From a virus: 44,748 nucleotides of DNA. The notes beneath the pieces were generated by a model that was given only the letters and a program-made list of their open reading frames with translations, made no database searches and was not told the DNA's origin. Made by a program: the position numbers and the translations under genes. The first letter of the stretch is position 1, and the number at the start of each line of letters is the position of its first letter. Of the stretch, positions 2,999 through 44,748 are shown piece by piece. The DNA is taken from positions 1 through 44,748 of the IMG/VR virus record IMGVR_UViG_3300010354_000158. One strand, 5' to 3'.

Positions 2999-5900
2999 TT
3001 ATCTTTTCGATGCAATGTTTATAGCTGTCGGCATAAATTGGTATGCCATGACAGGTATGAAGTTGGCCGCTGGTTTCATATTCGAGATTTTATTGTTACT
3101 ATGGAAATTATAAAAAATACCATTATAAAAAATACCAATATGTGTTATAATAGAAAAAGGATATTCGTTTGTTTTTGGTTTTAGATTGTCTGGAACCCGT
3201 CTGTTTATTGTCAATTGGTTTATTCTTGCTCGATTATTACTATTTTTAATAACTTCAAAAGATTCATCAATATATTTAGACCCAATTGTTAAACCAAAAA
3301 GAAAAGAACCATTTTTAAGCCCTGCATCTATAAGATCCTGATTACTCCAATTAGTTAATTTTTGATTTGGAGAGAAATATTGAACATTACCATTTTCTGG
3401 TAATCCAACAGCCCATTCCCAAGCATCTCCTAAAATATTTTGGTTTTTATATATACCGAGTTCTGAAAGTGCAAGTTTAACCCATTTTGCACAGTTTGCA
3501 CCAACGACACCGTAACTATTAAAATTGTTTGGATTAAATACAGATGCTAACTTACTACTAAACGTAGCTGAATTAATATTACTGCCCAATAAATACGAAG
3601 CAACTTTTCCATCTGAACCGACGACTCTAAAGACTTCGTTGGGGTTATTTACAGCAGTTGTTCCGATATTCAAGCCTCCAGATAAGATAGCATCTGCTTC
3701 TGCGGTAGTAAACCCGACATTTATAAGACCATCTCTACTATAATATTCACTATCTTTTCCATCAACGATTATGCTGTAATCTTGAGCTGCTGTAACATCT
3801 GTCTGCAATTTATCATTCACTCCGATGTTGAAGTAACTGGTAATCTTGTCAACAAGCGGATACACAAATTTTGAAATTCGCCGTCCACCAAACTCCGTGA
3901 CCATATCATGTGGAGTAATAGTATGTTTGACATTAGTAATCATGTGCGCACCATGAAACAAAGGTATGTTATCCAACTGAAAATACATGGTCGGGAAAAT
4001 CTGTGTATTTCCCATACATTCCACATCGGTTCTGTAACTTCTCACAGCATAGGCATTATAAAGGTCTGCACCCATATAAATCCTTTTTGTGCCGCCCTTG
4101 CCTCCAGCCAATTGATCCTGAATAGTCATGCTTTCAGCAGTCTCCCTGTGGTCTTCCTGTGTAACATTTACCTTTTTAAAAATGCTTTGATTTTGGTCGG
4201 CGTAAGAGACCCTGAAGATGCAGAGATTAAACTTGTCAAGATATTCTTTCGAGTATGGTGTAACACTGTTTACATAATAAGAAGGGACATTTTTTTGACT
4301 AAATCCAGGTGGCACAAACGTCTTACTTCTTGCATTAAAATCAAACCCATCGTTTAAGTAATAAGCACTTTCTGCATTAAGGTCAAGTACTTTACTGTTA
4401 CCAGCGACATACTGGAAAATCATACATGAACCACCTTCTGTATTTTCGACGTTGGTATAGGGTCTGAAGATATTAGACACCTCGTTTTTATTTCCAAATT
4501 GAACGAAAGCTGGGATGTTATAGAAGTTGAAATTGTTATCTTTTATTATCCTCGAAATGAAAAAATAAATATTCCCATCTATCTGACCCGAATACGTCAA
4601 AAGTGGTGTGGGATTAAGAACAACCTTATCTCCAATATCAGACCAAGTCCTGTCAATAAAATAACAATGCTCAATTAATTTTGTGGGCCGATTACCTTTC
4701 CTTAGATACCTTGAGAAATTATAAACCTTACCGTCACTTGTATTATACGAAAGCCATTTATCGTAAATGTTTTTTAAATGTTTGTAAATAACAATTTTTA
4801 AGTTCTTGTCAACCACTAAATTGTTTTCCTCTGCATTCTGTTCGGTATTTGCGTTGGGGGTAGCATTTTGTTTTGGGGACAATAGATAAACAAAAGTCTC
4901 TGCAAATGTTTTAGCATAAGCAGTAACCCTGTTGGTATCTGTCATATATACCATCTGGTTATCAGAAGGTACAGAGGGGATTATGACTTTGTTGACTTTT
5001 TTAAATAATTGTAATAAAAAATCTTTTGCTTGATTATATTGAGATTCTGTAATGTTTGTTCTCTTACGGTAATAAATATAATATACTAAAGCTGAATCAA
5101 GTTCACCAGAAAACAAAAATTCATCACTAAATTGTCTAAAAACATTAAAAAAATAATCGTTATTATCTTCAAAAGTTTTGAAAGGTTTAAATATGTTTTC
5201 ATTTGCTATCAAAGAAAAATTTGGATTGTTTTTTATATCTTCTGTTAAAAAATTGGGGTATTTTTTTTGAAAAGATATTCCACCCAAATACGCAGCATAA
5301 AGATATGGTATATTCGATAGATTTGCGGAAGTCTTGTCTTTTAGATTAGTATAATAACTTGAATCTTTAAACCCGATAGAATATAAAAACATGAAAGCTC
5401 TTGCATTATAATTGTTATCAGTATAATAAAATTGATTGAATAAATTAGCTCCTCTATTATAATTCGTAAAACTTTTACCCATACCACTAAACAATGTCAC
5501 ATCATCCAAAAAAGTAATTAACGGTTCTGTAGTATCCAAAGTCCTGCTACCGACCAATGTATTATATCTTAACAAAAGATGCTGATATATAGTCGGATTT
5601 GTGAAACAATCGGAATAATCGAGTATATTCAAAGCGATAGGTTCACTTATAAAGAAGTTTTCATTTTTTAACCCTTCAGATAATACAGTAGATATATTTT
5701 TCCTGATTCTATTCGTTAGAACGTCTGTTATATTGGCAGCAAAAGTCTTTGGTGCAAAACCTTTAAGACTTGTTTCAAGATTGTTTAAATCCGATAAAGG
5801 TATTTCGTATAATGGATTTAGATTGGTTGTAGCAGTGGATGTATTATATGATTGGTAATAATTTGTAAGATCACCTCTAACCTTTAGTCTTATGTTATCT

Positions 5901-7972
5901 ACGTTGTTTTGGGCGTATTGGACGGCGGAATTTACAAAATCCGTTATGTTGGTATTTTTTAAAGTCTCTTTGACATTCGAATTAAACACCTTGGAGGTAA
6001 AGTATGCTGCCTCAAGTTGTGCAAATGAAAGGATTTTGCCGTCTGTCTTTCCACTGGAAGATAACGAATAATCACTTAGAAGATGCAACCTTGAAAACAT
6101 TACCTCAAACAATTCATCGAAATTGTTTCCGTTGTAATTAAAACTGTCCGCTGTGTCGTAACCGTTGGCACTGTAATCAAATGGATGTATCGGAACCCAT
6201 TTTTCACCCAAAGAGGTTGAATAGGACTGTATACTCCCCTGAAGAATATCTGTAAGTTGTTCAGATAAAGAATTGTTTAAAAGTTGATTGACAATATCTA
6301 TTTCTGGGTAATAAGGATTCGTTTCTCCCACTATATCTCCAAGCCAAACATCCACACCTGCTTCATTGTAAACACCTGGAAATGGATAGATTTTGTCGTG
6401 TGTATGTGGTATATCAGTACTCTTCAACGAGTTTGTAGTCCTGAAATAGTCTGCAAGCAAGCCAACACGTTCCTGACCATAGCTTTCTGCCTTTTGACAG
6501 ACACTATAAAGCTGGTCCAAGAAGACATCAACATTACCCATAATAACCTCTAAAACATTCCTGATTGTGGGGTTAAAACCTATTTCTTGTATAAACCCTG
6601 CATTCAAATCATTTACGATTTTCTCTTGGGTATTTGTCCTAAGCTCATTTACTTTAGTATTTACTGAATCGACATTACTGCGGATTTCATAAAACGAATA
6701 ATAGTAAACAGGTGTATAGACACCCATTTTATTTTCCACATCGCTTAGAACATAATATGCTTTATAGTCGATAGATTCTTGTTCGAATATGGCATCGGAA
6801 ATATCAGTTATTAATTCATCATTAATCTCTGTATAACCCTTTGATTTAGTCGGTGTGAAATATTCGAGTTTATAACTGCTCAAAGAAGGATAACCCTCCA
6901 AGATAGTGTTTATCTCTGTAATCCTGTTATTGATATTGGATTGAAGTTCTTCAACATTCCCTATCAACTTTTCTCCGAATAAACCAATGTCCCTGAAGAA
7001 CATATAACCTTGCAAACTATTAAAGGTTTCATAGTTTATATTATTGCCATAAACCTTGTCTTCCCTTTTAGTACAAGGCAAGCCAAGTATAGTTATTAAT
7101 TCGTTTATCTTTTCAGAGACAGTATTCAAAGCAGTTATAATGGCTATGTCTGGATTATCCTTCTTCTGATTCTCGATATACGTTGATATTTTAGTATATT
7201 TCTGCAAAAGGTCTGGTATAGACATCAATCCAACATCGCCGTTCAACAACTCATATTTTGACAAAAGGTCTTTACCAACAGCGGTATTATTCAAATCTAT
7301 CACATATTTCGTAATAATATCTGCCAAAAACGCATAATCATACCCGATAAATTTTGTTTTTATTGAAAAATCCCCTGTTTCGCCGTCCAACGTCGCCTTA
7401 AAATCAATCAAATTCAAATAATATGTTGTAGCTTTACCATAGTATCCTTTTACTGTCAATTCAAAAATAGGATACGGCATTGTAAAGAAGGCATTATACT
7501 TTGAGGTATTATAATAATCCTTTCCAACCTGTCTTTCATAGTCATTGAAAATGGCTGCACCTCTTACATCTACGAAGTCTATTTCGACGGTGGACGGCGT
7601 AAACATATTCATGCTGATTCTTATATTCGTTATTCCCAACCCCTCCTCTGTTTTTCCGCCGTCCACCCCTCCAATGTTACTATAATCAGTGGTAAGGTAT
7701 CCATCACTCTTTTTATTCCTGCCTATAAAATAAATCCCGTCTTCGTCTTGAGACTTGCTACTATAAGTGTTATTGGAAACAATGGTACTCCTGTTTTGGG
7801 GGAAAGCGCGTAATCTCGCAAAGATAAAAAGGTCTTCCGTTGGAACAGAAATGTTTCCAATAGGGTTCGGATCAACCACACAAGTGAAGTAAGAATCAGT
7901 GTTAACATTACCATTTGAAGTAGAATCAAACAGGTCTTCTACTACATATTTCAGGTCATTTAGATTAGCCAT
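2999..7972 (-). CDS. Giant baseplate/tail protein with C-terminal NlpC/P60-like Cys-His domain
   Basis: 1657 aa. The N-terminal part (residues about 1-220) has beta-rich segments such as TMPYPIFELTVKGYYG followed by LDGETGDFSIKTKFIGYDYAF, a style seen in large contractile-tail baseplate proteins. The middle is long and Asn/Tyr-rich. Around residues 1310-1385 a conserved-looking block includes IFPTMYFQLDNIPLFHGAH and ITPHDMVTEFGGRR, hub-like in character. The C-terminus looks enzymatic: ANCAKWVKLAL with Cys1494 and ITHIGIFYNG with His1611 have the spacing and flanks of an NlpC/P60- or CHAP-type peptidase. That would suit a tail-tip murein hydrolase used during entry. It is followed by the 57-aa gene and preceded by the LysM protein. 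The baseplate role is inferred; the peptidase call is moderate. Confidence 0.65.
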   Translation of the reverse strand: MANLNDLKYVVEDLFDSTSNGNVNTDSYFTCVVDPNPIGNISVPTEDLFIFARLRAFPQNRSTIVSNNTYSSKSQDEDGIYFIGRNKKSDGYLTTDYSNIGGVDGGKTEEGLGITNIRISMNMFTPSTVEIDFVDVRGAAIFNDYERQVGKDYYNTSKYNAFFTMPYPIFELTVKGYYGKATTYYLNLIDFKATLDGETGDFSIKTKFIGYDYAFLADIITKYVIDLNNTAVGKDLLSKYELLNGDVGLMSIPDLLQKYTKISTYIENQKKDNPDIAIITALNTVSEKINELITILGLPCTKREDKVYGNNINYETFNSLQGYMFFRDIGLFGEKLIGNVEELQSNINNRITEINTILEGYPSLSSYKLEYFTPTKSKGYTEINDELITDISDAIFEQESIDYKAYYVLSDVENKMGVYTPVYYYSFYEIRSNVDSVNTKVNELRTNTQEKIVNDLNAGFIQEIGFNPTIRNVLEVIMGNVDVFLDQLYSVCQKAESYGQERVGLLADYFRTTNSLKSTDIPHTHDKIYPFPGVYNEAGVDVWLGDIVGETNPYYPEIDIVNQLLNNSLSEQLTDILQGSIQSYSTSLGEKWVPIHPFDYSANGYDTADSFNYNGNNFDELFEVMFSRLHLLSDYSLSSSGKTDGKILSFAQLEAAYFTSKVFNSNVKETLKNTNITDFVNSAVQYAQNNVDNIRLKVRGDLTNYYQSYNTSTATTNLNPLYEIPLSDLNNLETSLKGFAPKTFAANITDVLTNRIRKNISTVLSEGLKNENFFISEPIALNILDYSDCFTNPTIYQHLLLRYNTLVGSRTLDTTEPLITFLDDVTLFSGMGKSFTNYNRGANLFNQFYYTDNNYNARAFMFLYSIGFKDSSYYTNLKDKTSANLSNIPYLYAAYLGGISFQKKYPNFLTEDIKNNPNFSLIANENIFKPFKTFEDNNDYFFNVFRQFSDEFLFSGELDSALVYYIYYRKRTNITESQYNQAKDFLLQLFKKVNKVIIPSVPSDNQMVYMTDTNRVTAYAKTFAETFVYLLSPKQNATPNANTEQNAEENNLVVDKNLKIVIYKHLKNIYDKWLSYNTSDGKVYNFSRYLRKGNRPTKLIEHCYFIDRTWSDIGDKVVLNPTPLLTYSGQIDGNIYFFISRIIKDNNFNFYNIPAFVQFGNKNEVSNIFRPYTNVENTEGGSCMIFQYVAGNSKVLDLNAESAYYLNDGFDFNARSKTFVPPGFSQKNVPSYYVNSVTPYSKEYLDKFNLCIFRVSYADQNQSIFKKVNVTQEDHRETAESMTIQDQLAGGKGGTKRIYMGADLYNAYAVRSYRTDVECMGNTQIFPTMYFQLDNIPLFHGAHMITNVKHTITPHDMVTEFGGRRISKFVYPLVDKITSYFNIGVNDKLQTDVTAAQDYSIIVDGKDSEYYSRDGLINVGFTTAEADAILSGGLNIGTTAVNNPNEVFRVVGSDGKVASYLLGSNINSATFSSKLASVFNPNNFNSYGVVGANCAKWVKLALSELGIYKNQNILGDAWEWAVGLPENGNVQYFSPNQKLTNWSNQDLIDAGLKNGSFLFGLTIGSKYIDESFEVIKNSNNRARINQLTINRRVPDNLKPKTNEYPFSIITHIGIFYNGIFYNFHSNNKISNMKPAANFIPVMAYQFMPTAINIASKR

Positions 7973-20230: not shown

Positions 20231-21310
20231 TTAGGATGCTATTCCGTAGAGCTTTATTTGCACTGGTTTTGTTACTGTTTTATTGTATACCAGTTTCAAT
20301 ATGTCACCTCTGTTTATATTGAATGGGAGGGTGGACGGCGAATTGTTTACAAAATAATCCACGTTATTATCTGTGGTGGATTGGTTGTCGAATTGGACGG
20401 CGAAATTGGTGGTCAGCCTATATTCAATAGTCGTAGATGACTTTTTGTTGAGGTTGAATGTCAATGATTGGTTGCAATCATTGGAATTGGTTATCTCTTC
20501 TATACTGCAAACTTCTGGGGTGGACGGCGAAAGAGGTTCTGTGGACATTTTTATGTTGTTCACACTGCGCTTTATTTTGAAATCCTTTTCATCGAATATA
20601 AAGGCTTTCATGTTTATCACATAATTGGTTCTATAAAAGCGTCTCTCTTCTATTTCCTTTTTATTATTCTCTGTAATATCATCCAAAACCAATTCCATAT
20701 TATGCCCAAAAATGTTGATTGAGTTTTGGGGCTTTTTGAACTCCTGCAAAATCAATTCATTAAATTTGTTGGTCGTATGGATGTGGTTTGCAAATAAATT
20801 GATTTTATATTGCAAGTCCACAAAAGTCGGTTGGGGGATTTCAATATATTCAAATATTGTTTTTCCATTAACGACTTTAGGGATTCTATATAATGGAAAA
20901 GATTCTCCCGAAGGAAGTGTCGAAGAGAATCCCCCAAGGTAAGTTCCTTTTTTTCCAGCGGTTTCTTTCGTCACAGTTATAAGTGGCAGTTTCGGGTGAC
21001 TGGATTCATCCGTTTGGTTCCATGTCTGCATAAATTCTGAAAATCTTTGCAGGTTTATTTGGAACACTGGCACCAAAGAACCCTCTACTTCAAACTGCAA
21101 TGCCTTCACCCACTCGATAAAAGCATTGTCAAGGTCTTCCAAATGAATTGCCCTTGGAAACAAGGTCTCTCCATCTGTCACCTCTTTCATGCTCATTTCA
21201 GTAACCAAGTCGTTGTTTTCAACCAATTGTTGGACTGGCAAATCCAACAAATCAGTTGTTTTATTTGCTATTCCAGGTTTTTTAATTATTATTGACTTGG
21301 GTGGTTGCAT
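20231..21310 (-). CDS. Putative tail terminator/sheath stabiliser (T4 gp15-type)
   Basis: 359 aa. Around residues 165-250 the sequence runs IPQPTFVDLQYKINLFANHI, a T-N-x-x-N-E-L-I-L segment, an F-x-x-P-Q segment and RRFYRTNYVINMKAFIFDEK. This order (P-x-x-V-x-L-x-Y-x-V/I strand, helix with N-x-x-x-E, then an arginine/tyrosine strand) resembles proteins that close the tail tube and sheath top in T4-type phages (gp15). It lies directly upstream of the sheath gene, as expected. The C-terminal third is Ser/Thr/Asn-rich and beta-like. Three copies of the repeated 9-mer fall in it (20332, 20394, 20521). The role is inferred from pattern and position only. Confidence 0.4.
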   Translation of the reverse strand: MQPPKSIIIKKPGIANKTTDLLDLPVQQLVENNDLVTEMSMKEVTDGETLFPRAIHLEDLDNAFIEWVKALQFEVEGSLVPVFQINLQRFSEFMQTWNQTDESSHPKLPLITVTKETAGKKGTYLGGFSSTLPSGESFPLYRIPKVVNGKTIFEYIEIPQPTFVDLQYKINLFANHIHTTNKFNELILQEFKKPQNSINIFGHNMELVLDDITENNKKEIEERRFYRTNYVINMKAFIFDEKDFKIKRSVNNIKMSTEPLSPSTPEVCSIEEITNSNDCNQSLTFNLNKKSSTTIEYRLTTNFAVQFDNQSTTDNNVDYFVNNSPSTLPFNINRGDILKLVYNKTVTKPVQIKLYGIAS

Positions 21311-29157: not shown

Positions 29158-29207
29158 AAAAAATCCCCCAAAGAAAAAGAAATGTTCTTCTCTTTGGGGG
29201 ATTTTTT
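29158..29207. terminator. Bidirectional intrinsic terminator between convergent genes
   Basis: A 17-bp perfect stem (29158-29174 with 29191-29207) contains CCCCC/GGGGG and is flanked by A6 and T6, with a 16-base loop. It ends both the rightward helicase gene (stop at 29155) and the leftward 107-aa gene (stop at 29206). Confidence 0.92.
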
Positions 29208-29529
29208 ATGCTATGTAGGCATTCAATTCATAAGTTTCCTTATTATTGTCCATTCTATATATTTGAAAATAAAGTGCTTTATTTTTCACTTTCTCACCAT
29301 TTTTGAATAAACTTAAAGTTATTCTGTTTGTCTCTCCTTTCTCTGGTTTTTTTGGTCCCAGCCCAATTTTTTCACCCATTTCTTCGCCGTCCAACTCATA
29401 GCCCCGCTCCTCTGCATATTTTTCAGCTGCATTAACTGCACTGGTGTAAGAGTTGTGGTGAAGCGGATAAGGACTTTTATTCGCTTCAGTAATCTTCTTG
29501 TAGGTTTCTTCTGTGATTTTTATTTTCAT
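29206..29529 (-). CDS. Hypothetical protein with capsid-targeting-like leader (107 aa)
   Basis: Begins MKIKITEETYKKITEANKS: a basic/hydrophobic start and K-I-T-E-A, matching the leader family described in the findings. After the leader come a short helix (SAVNAAEKYAEERGY) and a basic beta-rich region ending KALYFQIYRMDN. No fold is recognised. It is separated from the WxxGx-repeat gene by 21 bases with no clear promoter, so it is probably co-transcribed. The 9-mer at 29385 is read as Leu-Asp-Gly-Glu. Confidence 0.65.
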   Translation of the reverse strand: MKIKITEETYKKITEANKSPYPLHHNSYTSAVNAAEKYAEERGYELDGEEMGEKIGLGPKKPEKGETNRITLSLFKNGEKVKNKALYFQIYRMDNNKETYELNAYIA

Positions 29530-29550: not shown

Positions 29551-30954
29551 TTATTTCGGAGGAGTATTTGATTCAATCCATTCTTTTTTATTTTCATCCC
29601 AAATTTTACCATTTTTCCAAACTCCTTCCTTCCAATCTCCTTTATACCAAGTACCATTCTCCCAAACACCGCCTAACCAAGTCCCCCCTTGCCAACCCCC
29701 ATTGCTCCAAATACCATCTTTCCAAACGCCGTTCTCCCAAGACCCATTTCCCCAATCACCATCTTCCCAAATCCCATCTTTCCAAATACCCGTTTCCCAA
29801 AACCCTTTTTCCCAAATTCCTTTTTTCCAAGTACCGTTTATCCATTCCCCTTTTTTCCAAATACCATTTTCCCAAAGACCATTATACCAATAACCTTTCA
29901 TCCAAGTACCGCTCACCCAAGTACCGCTCACCCAAGTACCATTTTTCCAAGTACCTTTTTGCCAAACTCCATTATACCATTTTAAATCTTCTTGGTCAAG
30001 TCCAAGTACAGCATCCTTAAAAATCGGATTTCCTTCATATAACCAAGGAAATCTTTTGGTAATTGTTTCAAATGTTAAACCATCTCTTAATTCTTTAATT
30101 TGGTCGCCGATTTTATTTTCAACTTCTTTTATTTTTTTAGCACTGAAATTTGCTATCTGTAATATACTATCATTATCATGTAAGTTTTTATCAATTTCAA
30201 AAATGCCTGTTTTTTCTTCCTGTGCTTCATCTAAAACAGAAATTAATTTTTTAACATATTTTTCGTTACCGAGACCATATTTTACAGAATCTCGTTCAAT
30301 ACCATATAATATGTCATCTTGGTCATTTTCGTTTATATAAGGTTTTATTGAAATTCTTGAAAAAGGGTTTTGAATATTTTTATCGCCTTTTTCAATTAAA
30401 TAAGATATTATGGTGCCTTGTTCTACATGAATTTGTACATAATCTTTGTTTGTTCCATCCCTCAAATTCAGACAGGATTTCCAATTTCTATCTGTTGACA
30501 TCCCGCCAATATCATAAGGATGCTTTGAAATAACCATCAGATATTCTGTACCAGTATTTGCAACAACGCTTTTCTCATTGTTATACCTTTGAAGCAAATT
30601 TAAAGCATCTTTATCAGTCTTACTAAACATTGTTAAAACCTTACCCAATTTAACGATATTTTTATCACCCTTTTTTTTAACAAATCCTTTGGAGAAGTCA
30701 ACAACGTCATAATTATTTTTTGATAAAAAATTGGTTATCTCACTTTTTGATGGAATTTCTAAATCATTTGATTGTTCAATATTAAAATAAAGCCTGTCAC
30801 CAGACCTATTTTTAGCATCTGCCATCGCCTCCAATCTTGGCCATATTTGATTAATACGCTCCATAGCCAACTCCCTTCCAACCTTCATCAAATCCCTAAA
30901 CTCCGAAGGCTTCAACGCTTCGTTAATAATTGATTCAGAAATTTTTACTATCAT
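29551..30954 (-). CDS. WxxGx pentapeptide-repeat protein with capsid-targeting-like leader
   Basis: 467 aa. The leader MIVKISESIINEALKPS contains I-I-N-E-A. Residues about 15-320 form a helical/beta domain of unknown function with KHPYDIGGMSTDRNWKSCLN and NPFSRISIKPYINEN as its most distinctive strings. Residues 326-450 are 25 tandem pentapeptides W-x-x-G-x (for example WKNGT, WENGI, WKKGE), likely a regular beta structure with stacked Trp and turn Gly. It reads like a MORN-related or adhesive beta-solenoid. No signal peptide is present. The 25 repeats are encoded by a 15-base tandem array with diverged copies. It might be a packaged, injected protein or a surface-binding protein; I cannot decide. 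It is followed by the frameshifted neck-type gene upstream. Confidence 0.6.
   Translation of the reverse strand: MIVKISESIINEALKPSEFRDLMKVGRELAMERINQIWPRLEAMADAKNRSGDRLYFNIEQSNDLEIPSKSEITNFLSKNNYDVVDFSKGFVKKKGDKNIVKLGKVLTMFSKTDKDALNLLQRYNNEKSVVANTGTEYLMVISKHPYDIGGMSTDRNWKSCLNLRDGTNKDYVQIHVEQGTIISYLIEKGDKNIQNPFSRISIKPYINENDQDDILYGIERDSVKYGLGNEKYVKKLISVLDEAQEEKTGIFEIDKNLHDNDSILQIANFSAKKIKEVENKIGDQIKELRDGLTFETITKRFPWLYEGNPIFKDAVLGLDQEDLKWYNGVWQKGTWKNGTWVSGTWVSGTWMKGYWYNGLWENGIWKKGEWINGTWKKGIWEKGFWETGIWKDGIWEDGDWGNGSWENGVWKDGIWSNGGWQGGTWLGGVWENGTWYKGDWKEGVWKNGKIWDENKKEWIESNTPPK
29605..29979 (-). repeat. Tandem 15-bp repeat encoding 25 WxxGx units
   Basis: On the plus strand each unit resembles CCAAATACCATTTTT, with degenerate copies in perfect 15-base phase. 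All 25 units keep Trp and Gly codons in the minus-strand frame, so selection acts on the protein. It is not a CRISPR array: there are no spacers. Confidence 0.9.
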
Positions 30955-32130: not shown

Positions 32131-32592
32131 ATGAAATCTAAAAAGGTAAAATCTTGTTGGAAAAACATGGATGATTTGGGGGATATGATACAAAATGGTT
32201 TTGAAGTCCCCAACTGTATTCCAGATTCTGCATATAAATTGAACGAAGCACAAGTGTTTGTTAATAACAAAAACAGAGAGCTTCAATCCAAATACAAAAA
32301 GGTCAAACAATGGCTGGATGACACTATCGCTTCTGGTGACAAGGATTATGCAGAAAAACTGCTTGTCATCATTGACAGGTGGAGACAGAGTTATGAAGAT
32401 AAAATCAGGTCAGCTAAGAGCTTGGTTAAAGAAGGTAAGTCTGTTGATATTCAAATTCCAGATATTCAAAAACATCTTTCAAAAAATGAAAGAAAGATTA
32501 AAGAACAAATGAGAGTTATTAATGATGAAATCGAAATGGAATTGAAAGAGTTTAAAGAACGACTTTTCCACCAATCTCAAACACAGCCCTGA
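32131..32592 (+). CDS. Coiled-coil hypothetical protein (153 aa)
   Basis: Basic N-terminus (MKSKKVKSCWKNM), then almost entirely predicted helical with heptad-like Lys/Glu runs from about residue 45 to 145. It is convergent with and overlaps the leucine-rich-repeat-like gene by 41 bases at the 3' end. It has an ATTTAT element 20 bases upstream and diverges from the neck-type gene, so a late virion or scaffold-like role is possible. Scaffolding is only a guess from composition. Confidence 0.65.
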   Translation: MKSKKVKSCWKNMDDLGDMIQNGFEVPNCIPDSAYKLNEAQVFVNNKNRELQSKYKKVKQWLDDTIASGDKDYAEKLLVIIDRWRQSYEDKIRSAKSLVKEGKSVDIQIPDIQKHLSKNERKIKEQMRVINDEIEMELKEFKERLFHQSQTQP

Positions 32593-33025
32593 TTTCTTCT
32601 TCGGTGAAAATTTTTCCACCCCTTTTACCTTGATGTTTCATAGAAAAATTGCCGTAAACAATCTTTTTGGTGGACGGCAATTCTTCTATCATATTGTATT
32701 CACAGCTAAAATCTCCCATAACTTCGTCTGGGCAATATTCCAAACTTGTCGCGTCTATAAAATCGCAAGAGAAGTTTTCACCAACATAAATCGGGCAATT
32801 TTTTAAAGTAGTTAAATTGTTTATACCACAATTGAAATCACCTGATACTTCTTTGAATTTAACTGGAATTACTGTAAAATAATTGTCAGATATATCTACA
32901 TCATCTCCCACACTAACGAACCCTTGTTCGTCGATGGTATAATTAGTCACACCCAAGTCATACAACATCTCCCTTATTGGGACTACCATTTCCTCGTAGG
33001 TTGCTTCAGATATTCTAACTTTCAT
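32552..33025 (-). CDS. Leucine-rich-repeat-like phage protein with leader
   Basis: 157 aa. The N-terminus MKVRISEATYEEMVV contains R-I-S-E-A, a member of the leader family. Residues about 55-135 form a degenerate repeat of the type V-x-G-x-F-x-C-x-x-x-x-L-T-x-L-x-x-C-P-x-x-V (for example EVSGDFNCGINNLTTLKNCP, then EVMGDFSCEYNMIEELPST), common in phage-encoded repeat proteins and likely a beta-solenoid or LRR. The C-terminus is basic and helical. It overlaps the convergent 153-aa gene. A near-match to the 9-mer (TGGACGGCA) lies at 32671. The function is unknown; the leader suggests packaging into the capsid. Confidence 0.6.
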   Translation of the reverse strand: MKVRISEATYEEMVVPIREMLYDLGVTNYTIDEQGFVSVGDDVDISDNYFTVIPVKFKEVSGDFNCGINNLTTLKNCPIYVGENFSCDFIDATSLEYCPDEVMGDFSCEYNMIEELPSTKKIVYGNFSMKHQGKRGGKIFTEEEIRAVFEIGGKVVL

Positions 33026-35041: not shown

Positions 35042-35072
35042 CAAAGATAAGACAAATGGATCAATTAGGCAA
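35042..35072 (-). promoter_or_regulatory. Bacteroidetes-type promoter for SNF2 gene
   Basis: On the minus strand TTG (plus 35070-35072) is followed after exactly 20 bases by TATCTTTG (plus 35042-35049, CAAAGATA). The SNF2 start is 29 bases downstream. The -33 part lies inside the first codons of the divergent 174-aa gene. Confidence 0.65.
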
Positions 35073-37419: not shown

Positions 37420-38571
37420 TTACTTTTTTGCTTCGACCATGTTTATCGGAAGTCCGAACTCCTGCAATCCTTCAAAAAACTCATCCAAATAGGACATTTG
37501 GATTGATGGGGATATATCCCCGAACATATCTTTGTTAAATTTTTTGGGGTTAGATGTATTTTTTATTCCCATATCTAAAAAGTTCTCAATAAATCTAAGA
37601 AAACTTTTCTTGTTTATTGAGTTTTTTGAAGGGAAGTAATTGTTAAAAAGTTTTGAAATGTAGTCGTAGTTTTTTATGAAACGATAATCTGGTACTGAAT
37701 ATTTTTGACCGTATTGTAAATTTTTTTCCAAAAAATCTACAAAATCTTTACCTTTGGTTGTGATTTCAAAATAACTTGGAATTAATTTTATACTACCTTG
37801 GTTTGCGTACATCCCATCTTTATCAGACATTACTTCTAAAACCTTGTCAATTGACCTCCCAGGTTGTGAATTGTTATAAAACCCCAAACCAAATTTCTCA
37901 TCCAGCAGCAAAGCAGTTTGAGGTAATGTTAGAGCATAGGATTTATTTACATTTGATTCTAAAGGTGTTTTGGGGATTACTTCTTTGGATTGAATTTGTT
38001 TTTTATAAGACGGGCTTGCGAAATCGAAGACTTTTAAAACACCTTTAGAATCAAAACCATAATTACCAGAATGTAAATCTGGAGCTGTAAGATCTTGATA
38101 TTTTTTTAAAATTGAGTATAATTCTTCAGATATTTTTACAAACCTTTTAAAATAAGACTTGTAATCTTTGGTTATTTTTTTTTCAGCTTCTGTGACAATT
38201 TTTTCATTATCTTCTGTAAGACCAAAAAGTGCAATATCTTCAAGTAAATTTCTTAATCCGTGATTTAAAAATGAACTATTTATTTTGTTAAAAATTCTTC
38301 CTGCTTCTTTGGCATCCAATTTTTCTTGAATTATAACATAAGAATCACCTTCTCTTAATTTTTTCACAGATGTTTTTGGAAAAATGTTTTGATTTTCCGA
38401 CATCACTTTATATTGCAATAATTCAAAATAAGGGTAATCCCCTTCTATAGGTATTTTTTTAACTATCTTATCTCCTATATATACTACAGACGAAGTAGAA
38501 TTTCTACCCATTGGGTTCTCTCTCTTCGTACTTAATGCCTCGAATATATTTTCAGATATTTTTATTTTCAT
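37420..38571 (-). CDS. Protein kinase-like protein with capsid-targeting-like leader
   Basis: 383 aa. The leader MKIKISENIFEALSTKRE contains I-F-E-A. The kinase-fold features are: a glycine/serine loop GRNSTSSVVYIGDKIVKKIP with a likely Lys (about K38) after V-x-K, an alpha-C-like region, LREGDSYVIIQEKL in the position of a hinge, then APDLHSGNYGFDSKG with D165 and N170 in catalytic-loop positions, and VFDFASP with D183 of a DFG-like motif. It lacks a perfect HRD. It is probably an active or divergent kinase that would phosphorylate host proteins if injected. The start codon is preceded directly by one of the two intergenic 9-mers (38573). It ends back to back with the GMP reductase gene. Confidence 0.65.
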   Translation of the reverse strand: MKIKISENIFEALSTKRENPMGRNSTSSVVYIGDKIVKKIPIEGDYPYFELLQYKVMSENQNIFPKTSVKKLREGDSYVIIQEKLDAKEAGRIFNKINSSFLNHGLRNLLEDIALFGLTEDNEKIVTEAEKKITKDYKSYFKRFVKISEELYSILKKYQDLTAPDLHSGNYGFDSKGVLKVFDFASPSYKKQIQSKEVIPKTPLESNVNKSYALTLPQTALLLDEKFGLGFYNNSQPGRSIDKVLEVMSDKDGMYANQGSIKLIPSYFEITTKGKDFVDFLEKNLQYGQKYSVPDYRFIKNYDYISKLFNNYFPSKNSINKKSFLRFIENFLDMGIKNTSNPKKFNKDMFGDISPSIQMSYLDEFFEGLQEFGLPINMVEAKK

Positions 38572-38589: not shown

Positions 38590-39783
38590 TTAATCTTCTT
38601 GGCTTAGGCTTTCTGCCAGTTCTACGATAAAAGTTTCGTATTCCTCTGCTTTAAGTCTGTCTTTTCCAGCGGCGAGAAATCTTTCTTGCCGCTCTTTGTT
38701 TGCGAGGTTTTCGTAATTTATTGGTTTGCCTTTGCTATATGCCAATCCATTTTTGATTTCGTATAACGATTTATCAATATGTTTATCAAACATCTTGTGA
38801 ACGTCATCTACAATCAAAGGTGTTTTTTCATCATATAGTCTCGAAGCAAGCAGCAGATTTAATATTTTAGATATGTCTTTTGGATTTGTGTAGAAAGAAT
38901 ACAACCTGTAAGCATCTTTCCAATCAAGATAAATCAAATGGAAGTGACCCAATATGGCTCTATTTATAAAAAAATCATTCATTCCTTTTTCGCCGTCCAA
39001 CCCCTCAAATATCTTTTTATTATAGACAGTAAAACTACTAGAATCTTTAAAGTTATGAACAAGAATTTCACCCTTGCGCATATTAAAATCTTGATTCGGT
39101 TTATTAGATATTATTCTTTGGGGAAGTTGCGAGATAATTTCTTTAACCTTCTCTTTGGTTATATGATTATTTTTTATCAGATAACTATAAAATCCTTTGC
39201 TCAAGTAATCACGGACAGAATTTTCGTAATATTTTTTGGTAAGATTATAACCTTTTTCTGTGAATCCACCAGAATCCATTTTAGGGTAATGTTTTCTAAA
39301 TTGCTTTAAAAGAATTTCCCCCAAACCAAAGCCTCTAAATTCCTCTACAACTGTTATTAAGACCGCTCCCCATTCATCCTGTGCAGCTCCGACTAAAACA
39401 TCATCTTCATCAAATATAGCCACAGTAATCGAAAAAGGATTAATTCCAAGTATTTTTAACTCATCATCATTAAAATATAATGTCTCACCGCTTTCATTTT
39501 TTATTTGGTCTCCATATTCGTCAGTCATCACATATTTTTCTTTGTAATGCTGTTCTCTTAACTCAAATTCCATTCCTTTTGCAACAAACCTGTTGATTAG
39601 TTTTGGAAAATTACTTTTTTGATTATAACTGCTGTTTTTATTGTCTTCATAGGTAGTTCTATATGCAGATGAAGGATGACTTTCATCCCTCTTATTAAAC
39701 TGCATATAGAACTCTTTCCATGTCATCAAAGCTGGATCAACCAACTTCTTAATATATTTTGTGGTAGCTTCGTTTAACATCAA
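38590..39783 (-). CDS. GNAT-family acetyltransferase with capsid-targeting-like leader
   Basis: 397 aa. The N-terminus MMLNEATTKYIKKL contains L-N-E-A. The GNAT signature lies at about residues 119-165: SITVAIFDEDDVLVGAAQDE then ITVVEEFRGFGLGEILLKQF, where RGFGLG (150-155) is the R/Q-x-x-G-x-G/A acetyl-CoA pyrophosphate loop. The remaining 230 residues hold an unrecognised helical domain with basic stretches. It overlaps the metacaspase-like gene by 4 bases, so the two are translationally coupled. T4-type phages inject enzymes that modify host proteins; this could be one, but the substrate is unknown. Confidence 0.75.
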   Translation of the reverse strand: MMLNEATTKYIKKLVDPALMTWKEFYMQFNKRDESHPSSAYRTTYEDNKNSSYNQKSNFPKLINRFVAKGMEFELREQHYKEKYVMTDEYGDQIKNESGETLYFNDDELKILGINPFSITVAIFDEDDVLVGAAQDEWGAVLITVVEEFRGFGLGEILLKQFRKHYPKMDSGGFTEKGYNLTKKYYENSVRDYLSKGFYSYLIKNNHITKEKVKEIISQLPQRIISNKPNQDFNMRKGEILVHNFKDSSSFTVYNKKIFEGLDGEKGMNDFFINRAILGHFHLIYLDWKDAYRLYSFYTNPKDISKILNLLLASRLYDEKTPLIVDDVHKMFDKHIDKSLYEIKNGLAYSKGKPINYENLANKERQERFLAAGKDRLKAEEYETFIVELAESLSQED

Positions 39784-40583
39784 TTCAAAAATTCCCTATA
39801 AGTAATCTTGTCCTTGTGGCCGTTAACAACCTGCAACTTCGGCGTTTGTGGATAACCAGTTTTGGCAATCTGCTCTCCAATCCGCTTGAAAATCTGAAAA
39901 TAATTCAATTGTTTATTTTCTTCTTTTTGGAAAATCTTTTCGATGCTGGCTGTAAACAAACCCATAGGGCGTTTATCAACAAACGACTGCATATCATAAG
40001 ATACCTGCTGTTCTGTCGAAGACGAATACGCTACAATATTGCATTTCAAGTCTTCTGCCTCTTCAAAAGCATCGCTTCCATGCAGTGCTTTTTCGGCATT
40101 GTCTGGGTGTGGCAGTGATTTAAATTCAACAAATTTTGGAACGCCGAAGGATTCAGCACCCAACGACTTGAAATTATCTCTTGCATGGCAGCAATCCGCC
40201 ATCCAAATTACATTCACACCCTCCTTGAATTTGCTTAACATTTCGCGGGTCTCATAGTCCCAAACGATTCTATCGTGCAAGCAGAGGGCTGTTCTGCGCT
40301 TCTCAACGCCATTCTCTTCATAGTCTTCGTATGTGCCATGACATGAGACAGTAAACAAGAATATATCGCCGTCCACCAACTCCTCACCCATTTTTGTCAT
40401 AAATTCAACATACTTTGAATAGGTGGCTTCTTTTGACAAAAATACGTTCGTATCATATCCTTTTTCCTTTGCTACTTCTGCAAGGTATAAAATATCGTTT
40501 TCACAACCACGAAGGTCGTTATCAGGCCCGTAATATTCGGGATCAAAATGTTTAATGCCAAAATGCAGTGATACTTTTTTCAT
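39780..40583 (-). CDS. Metacaspase-like cysteine protease (caspase/C14 fold)
   Basis: 267 aa. Features in order: LHFGIKHFDPEYYG and LRGCENDILYLAEVAKEKGY (caspase p20 start, with the L-x-G-C-x-N-D pattern), FLFTVSCHGTYEDYE with His82, MADCCHARDNF with the D-x-C-H arrangement and likely nucleophile Cys132, then AYSSSTEQQVSYD, which resembles the S1 loop, and GLFTASIEKIF. Metacaspases use this His/Cys dyad and often cleave after Lys or Arg. Its presence in a phage is unusual: possible roles are counter-defence, killing, or processing of phage proteins. It lacks the [IL]-x-E-A leader of its neighbours. It is coupled to the acetyltransferase gene and has an ATTTAT element upstream. Confidence 0.85.
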   Translation of the reverse strand: MKKVSLHFGIKHFDPEYYGPDNDLRGCENDILYLAEVAKEKGYDTNVFLSKEATYSKYVEFMTKMGEELVDGDIFLFTVSCHGTYEDYEENGVEKRRTALCLHDRIVWDYETREMLSKFKEGVNVIWMADCCHARDNFKSLGAESFGVPKFVEFKSLPHPDNAEKALHGSDAFEEAEDLKCNIVAYSSSTEQQVSYDMQSFVDKRPMGLFTASIEKIFQKEENKQLNYFQIFKRIGEQIAKTGYPQTPKLQVVNGHKDKITYREFLN

Positions 40584-40595
40584 GTTGAATTTTTA

Positions 40596-40605
40596 TAATA
40601 AATAG
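40596..40605 (-). promoter_or_regulatory. ATTTAT element (putative late promoter)
   Basis: The coding strand reads CTATTTATTA, 13 bases before the metacaspase start in the gap 40584-40621. A weak hairpin (GGGATT/AATCCC) overlaps the gap. Confidence 0.4.
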
Positions 40606-43620: not shown

Positions 43621-44748
43621 TCAATAAATATATTTTTTTATGAATTTCCAGTTGCCACAATCCCAGACCTTATCATAACCCAAACAAATCATCAATTGTT
43701 CTTCTGTCATCTTGGGGTCCATTTCGGGGTATTCTTTTAAAATCTTATGCTTTTGGAAGCGAACCCTGTTGAACAGTTTTTGCCCTAATTCTGGCTTGTA
43801 ATAATGATACACTGGCGGTTGCTTTTCAATCAATTCAAAACCCAATTTGGTGTATAAATTATTTTTCCCATCTGGTGTCCATCGAATGTCTGCAAATGTT
43901 TTTAGGGTGGACGGCGAATGTTCCCGTTCAAAATGTTTCAACATCTTGGATGCAAGCCCCCTGACATGGTAATCATAATTTGTGGCGTATCTGTTCAAAT
44001 CAAATTCGCCGTCCACTTTCCCCCGCAAAAATGTCATCACCCCAACCAATTCGCCGTCCAACCACGCCCCATACCTAATAGGTGCATTATCATGCCCTTG
44101 TATATGGAATTTACTTAAAAAATCTTTTGTGTTATTATAAGAAATCCGTTTTATTACGCAATCCCTCGCATTAACCTTTTTCCCCGTGTTTAATCCACAA
44201 GCGTTTAATAACTTGTTTTTCACCAGCTCTGGTTTTTCAAGGTATTCGTTTTCAAATACATGGTAAAGTCTTATGCCTTTGCTTGCTGCCAAATTGCTTT
44301 TTTCTATGTGATAATTCTTTGTCTTGGTATTCACTATTTTGTACTTATGTTCAACCAAACCTTCCCTGTGGAAAAGCAACCCATTAAATTCTATCCCTAT
44401 TTCGCCGCCGCTGCCATAGGCACCCACAAGCAAATCAATCTCCCTACCCTCCAAAATCTTCTTATTATGTTGTTCCACATTCTTCCCTAAAGAAGAAAAC
44501 AATTCAGCATACTCATTTTCTATTTTTGAAGAATATGCAGTACACTTTTGACAACCACCCCCAAGCAAATGTACATAAGGTGCGATTTCAAATATTCCAT
44601 GTTTTTTACATAGTATCTTTATCTTCTCCCGACAATCTTTATATTCATCCACATATTCGTATTTATCACCGTGCACACTTCTTGCCTTTTCAATATAGGT
44701 TATGGTGTCATAATTGTTAACAGTCTTTCCACACATCCCACAACCAGT
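43621..44748 (-). CDS. VSR/PD-(D/E)xK-type homing endonuclease with GNAT-like C-terminal domain, 5' end outside window
   Basis: The frame is open to the right edge; the ATG at 44736 sits inside a zinc-finger string TGCGMCGKTVNN, so the true start is beyond the window. A repeat unit follows (HGDKYEYVDEY, then KILCKKHGIFEIAP and GGGCQKC): a treble-clef zinc finger found in phage homing-type nucleases. Next a PD-(D/E)xK/VSR-like core: KIENEYAELF, GREIDLLVG and IGIEFNGLLFH. The C-terminal 150 residues resemble the Mom/GNAT-like region of these proteins (RYGAWLDGELVGVMTFLRG, DLNRYATNYDYHVRGLASKM, NNLYTKLGFELI). Such genes spread by cutting uninfected copies. Three 9-mers fall in it (43908, 44007, 44052). 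Confidence 0.8.
   Translation of the reverse strand, partial: TGCGMCGKTVNNYDTITYIEKARSVHGDKYEYVDEYKDCREKIKILCKKHGIFEIAPYVHLLGGGCQKCTAYSSKIENEYAELFSSLGKNVEQHNKKILEGREIDLLVGAYGSGGEIGIEFNGLLFHREGLVEHKYKIVNTKTKNYHIEKSNLAASKGIRLYHVFENEYLEKPELVKNKLLNACGLNTGKKVNARDCVIKRISYNNTKDFLSKFHIQGHDNAPIRYGAWLDGELVGVMTFLRGKVDGEFDLNRYATNYDYHVRGLASKMLKHFEREHSPSTLKTFADIRWTPDGKNNLYTKLGFELIEKQPPVYHYYKPELGQKLFNRVRFQKHKILKEYPEMDPKMTEEQLMICLGYDKVWDCGNWKFIKKYIY
43622..43632 (-). promoter_or_regulatory. ATTTAT element (putative late promoter)
   Basis: The coding strand reads AATATATTTATTG, 13 bases before the CCA-enzyme start and inside the last codons of the next upstream gene. Confidence 0.35.

Follow-up and report, generated by a model that had tools for sequence, protein, structure and literature searches.

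The window analysed here, that is, the whole 44,748-nt stretch of viral DNA, is an IMG/VR record with a T4-type tail sheath. Its minus strand carries an ORF, initiated by ATG, for a metacaspase-like protein, together with an upstream promoter-type element and a downstream GNAT-like ORF. The features of this locus are as follows:

38590-39780, minus strand: downstream ORF (phrog_29287), GNAT-like below threshold only, overlapping the metacaspase ORF by 1 base when read from its ATG
39780-40583, minus strand: metacaspase-like C14 protease, 267 aa (PF00656, E 3.3e-17; PDB 3bij, E 2.7e-15 by sequence and TM 0.83 by fold)
40188-40190, minus strand: codon of the catalytic Cys132 (D-C-C-H), invariant in 33 aligned sequences and in the three phage lineages
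40194-40196, minus strand: Asp130, S1-pocket residue by alignment with MCA2 D211, invariant in 33 aligned sequences
40338-40340, minus strand: codon of the catalytic His82 (S-C-H-G), invariant in 33 aligned sequences and in the three phage lineages
40344-40346, minus strand: Ser80, S1-pocket residue by alignment with MCA2 S156, kept in an alignment of six and in the three phage lineages
40494-40505, minus strand: Cys27-Glu-Asn-Asp30, two of the four S1-pocket residues (Arg/Lys at P1); C27 and D30 are invariant and align with C92 and D95 of T. brucei MCA2
40598-40605, minus strand: CTATTTAT, late-promoter-type element (predicted), 22 nt upstream of the ATG of the metacaspase

The sequence-only reading had recognised a metacaspase-like C14 protease in this ORF, and both the profile search and the predicted fold bear this out. 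PF00656 (Peptidase_C14) was the sole Pfam match, and lies far above chance, given a score of 63.4 bits, where 21.4 is the cut-off, and coverage of profile positions 3-225 out of 233, i.e. nearly the whole profile. The Peptidase_S77 profile, that of the T4 gp21 prohead protease, was not matched by the protein, and searches of PHROGs, NCBIfam and PADLOC-DB returned no match. The p20 part is followed by the p10 part in a single chain with no evident signal peptide. The C14 domain begins at residue 2-4, which means that there is no N-terminal prodomain, and such a direct start is also seen in most bacterial relatives of the GSU0716-type group. By sequence the nearest solved structure is GSU0716 of Geobacter (3bij), T. 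brucei metacaspase 2 being marginal. An AlphaFold model built from an alignment of 33 sequences (A6; the query and 32 relatives) reached a pLDDT of 83.4 and a pTM of 0.84, and represents a caspase fold closest to metacaspases: Foldseek placed 3bij at the top (E 1e-20), followed in the PDB by plant, yeast and trypanosome metacaspases and then by MALT1 and caspases. A model computed from the single sequence was poor (pLDDT 50) and was replaced by the alignment-based one, yet 3bij was already its best PDB match. Confidence in the final model is low over residues 131-180, which form the linker between p20 and p10, the expected place of any self-cleavage.

The motifs pointed out earlier, SCHGTY with His82, D-x-C-H with Cys132 and an L-x-G-C-x-N-D start, were all found, as S80-C81-H82-G83-T-Y, D130-C131-C132-H133 and L24-R-G-C27-E-N-D30, respectively. 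Residues H82, C132, C27, D30 and D130 are invariant across alignment A6, the conservation of S80 having been scored in the smaller alignment of six, and the motifs SCHGTYE and DCCHARDNFKS are kept in three phage lineages. The residues C27, D30, S80 and D130 align with C92, D95, S156 and D211 of MCA2, which we take to be the S1 pocket selecting Arg or Lys, and from this intact pocket we infer cleavage after Arg or Lys. The dyad and start motif had been read as an active C14 fold; the fold is now predicted and the dyad intact, whereas activity is a matter of probability, in that the protein is very probably an active cysteine protease.

Calcium-binding acids underlie the calcium dependence of most metacaspases, although they are not a criterion of C14 membership. 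In the phage protein these acids are mostly lost: R97 stands at the position of MCA2 D173, and Y110 replaces the second Asp of the DD pair, of which D109 is kept. The loop at this site reads EKRRT, EKRKT and EKRRT in the three phage lineages, against Asp-Glu in the bacterial relatives. This replacement predicts calcium independence, that is, the enzyme probably does not need calcium. The departures from the family consensus could also indicate a catalytically dead or decoy caspase fold, since the flanks of the motifs are divergent (HARD for HSG), the p10 motif is SSST instead of SGCQ, and some prokaryotic relatives are thought to be inactive (PMC5756287). However, the full dyad and all four pocket residues are kept in three lineages, and we regard a dead fold as improbable.

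Scans with the neighbouring genes and with the metacaspase gene itself identified orthologues at the same locus in other IMG/VR contigs, namely L074 (73% identity) and the pair L079/L080 (63%), the two members of which are 99.98% identical over 14 kb. A CCA/HD enzyme, the ORF at 35056 and a helicase are neighbours common to the window, L074 and L080; in addition, a phosphoesterase and a glycosyltransferase neighbour are shared with L074 and an IMPDH neighbour with L080. All contigs recovered that cover the locus have the metacaspase gene, leaving aside the more distantly related L098, which at 6.5 kb is too short for a judgement. The other scans were less productive. A single-protein scan of viral contigs gave nothing, alignment A1 was too divergent to serve as a search query, and the GNAT-like neighbour retrieved no relatives. 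The IMPDH neighbour led only to unrelated phages, and the phosphoesterase to L074 and four contigs without other shared genes.

With same-locus orthologues in two other IMG/VR lineages that retain every catalytic residue, the gene is a stable phage gene, and its earlier description as phage-encoded holds. In the phylogenetic tree the three phage lineages group as one clade (100/100 support), placed among bacterial proteins of the GSU0716 type and set off by a long stem. Outside this phage group, the nearest relatives with a solved structure or a known sequence are bacterial, as would be expected of a bacterial gene or a misassembly; the syntenic orthologues and the single, fully supported phage clade already contradict such an origin, to which we give practically no credence. 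C14 proteins were also found on the phage contigs LR745208.1, L008 and L009. The tree favours two separate origins of phage metacaspases, but a single clade was not rejected by the AU test (p 0.60), and two origins are therefore not claimed.

Between the window and L074 the metacaspase shows about 73-74% identity, compared with 69% for the helicase and 38% for a kinase-like neighbour. Judged by these values, the metacaspase evolves as slowly as core genes. Such slow evolution argues against an arms-race role, while leaving room for counter-defence. Synonymous sites of the gene are saturated, so that no dN/dS estimate was obtained.

The gene had further been described as coupled by 4 bases to an acetyltransferase, a proposal that turned out to be weak. 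The overlap is 1 base when the downstream ORF is read from its ATG (TGATG at 39778-39782), and 4 bases only from a TTG start; moreover, its GNAT match is sub-threshold (PF13508, E 0.055, 14.3 bits against 27). Because the downstream ATG overlaps the metacaspase stop by one base, translational coupling is plausible in the window. However, a homologue of the GNAT-like ORF (32% identity) lies upstream of the metacaspase in L080, and it is not adjacent in L074, so that a fixed functional pair is not supported.

The sibling contig L080 (G001; 136 kb) encodes a gp23-type capsid protein, a gp21-type prohead protease, a portal protein and a terminase. The best reference matches for capsid and sheath were Microcystis phage Mel-JY01, Flavobacterium immuto phages and uncultured huge phages. 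A BT4734-like domain, which points to a Bacteroidota host, is present, as is the TAnnTTTG promoter word, typical of Bacteroidota; taken together, these suggest that this T4-like phage group probably infects Bacteroidota. No metacaspase match was found in the related Flavobacterium immuto phages and Mel-JY01, indicating that T4-type assembly as such does not depend on the protein.

The word ATATTTAT was the most enriched one upstream of 149 ORFs from the window, the sibling and L074 (28 ORFs, against 1.7 expected). With one mismatch allowed, it occurs 18-30 nt before the start of 10 of the 31 window genes, whereas in 500 shuffles the count averaged 1.5 and never exceeded 6. It precedes the sheath and other tail-type genes in the window and, in the sibling, the terminase, portal, scaffold, prohead protease and baseplate wedge genes. 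In its place, the genes for DNA polymerase, exonuclease, primase, helicases and IMPDH have TAnnTTTG, replication genes being preceded by a Bacteroidota-like TATCTTTG element. The element, a statistical motif, is read as a predicted late promoter. A ATATTTAT-type element stands at about -22 of the metacaspase gene in all three lineages, and since it is shared with virion genes the metacaspase is predicted to be a late gene. As a separate observation, the two promoter-type words are nearly exclusive of each other and split the genes by function in the window and in L087-L093, ATATTTAT going with virion genes and TATCTTTG with replication and nucleotide genes.

A late protease whose gene lies within a few kb of that for the gp23-type capsid protein, as in L080 and L074, could be thought to replace gp21 in prohead maturation. 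However, a gp21-type enzyme is encoded by a separate gene directly in the head gene cluster of L080 (PF03420, Peptidase_S77, E 1.8e-22). The role of main prohead (capsid) protease was for this reason rejected, and we consider it very improbable.

The sequence-only reading had offered counter-defence, a lysis or death effector, or a processing protease as possible roles. In the first, the targets of the protease during infection would be immune proteins of the host or its caspase-type effectors. Caspase-like proteases do occur in bacterial anti-phage systems, e.g. Craspase (PMC9729208), C14 relatives are common among bacteria, including Bacteroidota, and late expression would not in itself keep the protein from acting on host defences. 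Nevertheless, the late-type element upstream in all lineages, together with a conserved locus and a core-like pace of evolution that differ from those of typical arms-race genes, weakens counter-defence as first choice, and no PADLOC-DB model was matched; we rate it as rather unlikely, if the most serious of the rivals. We find it more probable that the enzyme processes phage or host proteins late than that it counters defence early. As to an effector of host death or superinfection exclusion, proteolysis of host proteins would shut down or take apart the cell as infection ends, or would block rival phages. The intact active site and the predicted late timing are compatible with this, and caspase-family proteases act elsewhere in programmed cell death (PMC5756287), but the protein has neither a sensor domain nor a partner gene, and broad toxicity is only hypothetical, which leaves such a function distinctly doubtful.

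The best explanation as a whole, in which we have moderate confidence, is that of an active Arg/Lys-specific metacaspase carrying out late, limited cleavage of phage or host proteins beside the gp21-type protease. That is, a small soluble enzyme would be made late, together with the virion genes, and would cut a limited set of proteins in the phase between assembly and lysis, working alongside the prohead protease and not instead of it; that its targets are assembly- or lysis-stage proteins is a guess. More tentatively, in Bacteroidota T4-like phages a calcium-independent metacaspase might constitute a dedicated second, late proteolytic step beside gp21, which would complete assembly or the dismantling of the host by cleaving defined proteins of phage or host.

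The protein resembles GSU0716 of Geobacter sulfurreducens and other bacterial C14 relatives in length, in p20-p10 order and in its catalytic and pocket residues. It differs from them in that identity is only about 22-28%, with the phage clade on a very long branch, in the loss of most of the acidic loop and of one residue of the DD pair, and in its motifs (SCHGT, DCCHAR and SSST, against SGHGG, DSCHSG and SGCQ in the GSU0716 group); furthermore, it is encoded by a predicted phage late gene, whereas GSU0716 is a bacterial gene. With type I metacaspases such as T. brucei MCA2 and yeast Yca1 it shares the caspase fold, the His-Cys dyad and the four-residue, basic-specific S1 pocket, but not the N-terminal prodomain, and most of their calcium-site acids are not conserved in it. 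The C14 proteins of LR745208.1, L008 and L009 are likewise phage-borne and have a full dyad; however, they carry canonical SGHG and DSCHSG motifs, are about 23-28% identical, and have no other recognised window genes beside them. T4 gp21 is also a late phage protease, but a serine protease of another family (Peptidase_S77).

Both cells and giant viruses of eukaryotes are known to have caspase-type proteases, and C14 matches in the viral structure library came almost only from such viruses. Those of Medusavirus, HaV01, Fadolivirus and others are virus-encoded and have the same fold as the phage protein, but belong to viruses of eukaryotes and are only moderately similar to it in structure (TM up to 0.70). 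No description of a metacaspase from a phage turned up in the open literature covered. If true, the present reading would give phages a second class of protease, in the form of a conserved metacaspase of late type, and would offer a simple system, probably independent of calcium, in which to study metacaspase chemistry. A further question is what a phage would cut after Arg or Lys at the end of infection.

Other features of the window deserve mention. An N-terminal MK-x-[hydrophobic]-x-I-[ST]-E motif followed by a helix-like stretch occurs on unrelated proteins, in 5 of 33 window ORFs against 1 of 201 internal Met controls, and is also found at L080:8874 and L080:7708; the metacaspase does not have it. 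This start might serve as a sorting peptide, for capsid targeting or otherwise. The five window ORFs are:

29206-29529, minus strand
29551-30954, minus strand: C-terminal half a run of short NGxWxxGxW-type repeats, with no Pfam match
32552-33025, minus strand
37420-38571, minus strand: kinase-like by eye (DLHSGNYG, VFDF), with no significant Pfam match and a fast-evolving homologue in L074
41972-43609, minus strand: HD and CCA-type nucleotidyltransferase gene

The last of these is differently reduced in the other lineages, the HD part and a C-terminal remnant being kept in L074 (4230-5058) and only the nucleotidyltransferase part in L080 (7708-8871). The ORF at 2999-7972 (minus strand) encodes a protein of 1657 aa, the C-terminus of which looks by eye like a CHAP/NlpC-type peptidoglycan hydrolase. 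Finally, the 10-mer [GT]TGGACGGCG occurs 42 times on both strands of the 44.7-kb window, against 0.05 expected (e.g. at 2550-2559, 20393-20402 and, on the minus strand, 40367-40376 and 44052-44061). Copies of its 9-mer core TGGACGGCG number 67 in the sibling (136 kb) and 7 in L074, but the core is rare in the bacterial loci compared. The repeated word resembles an iterated signal of the uptake, Chi or packaging type.
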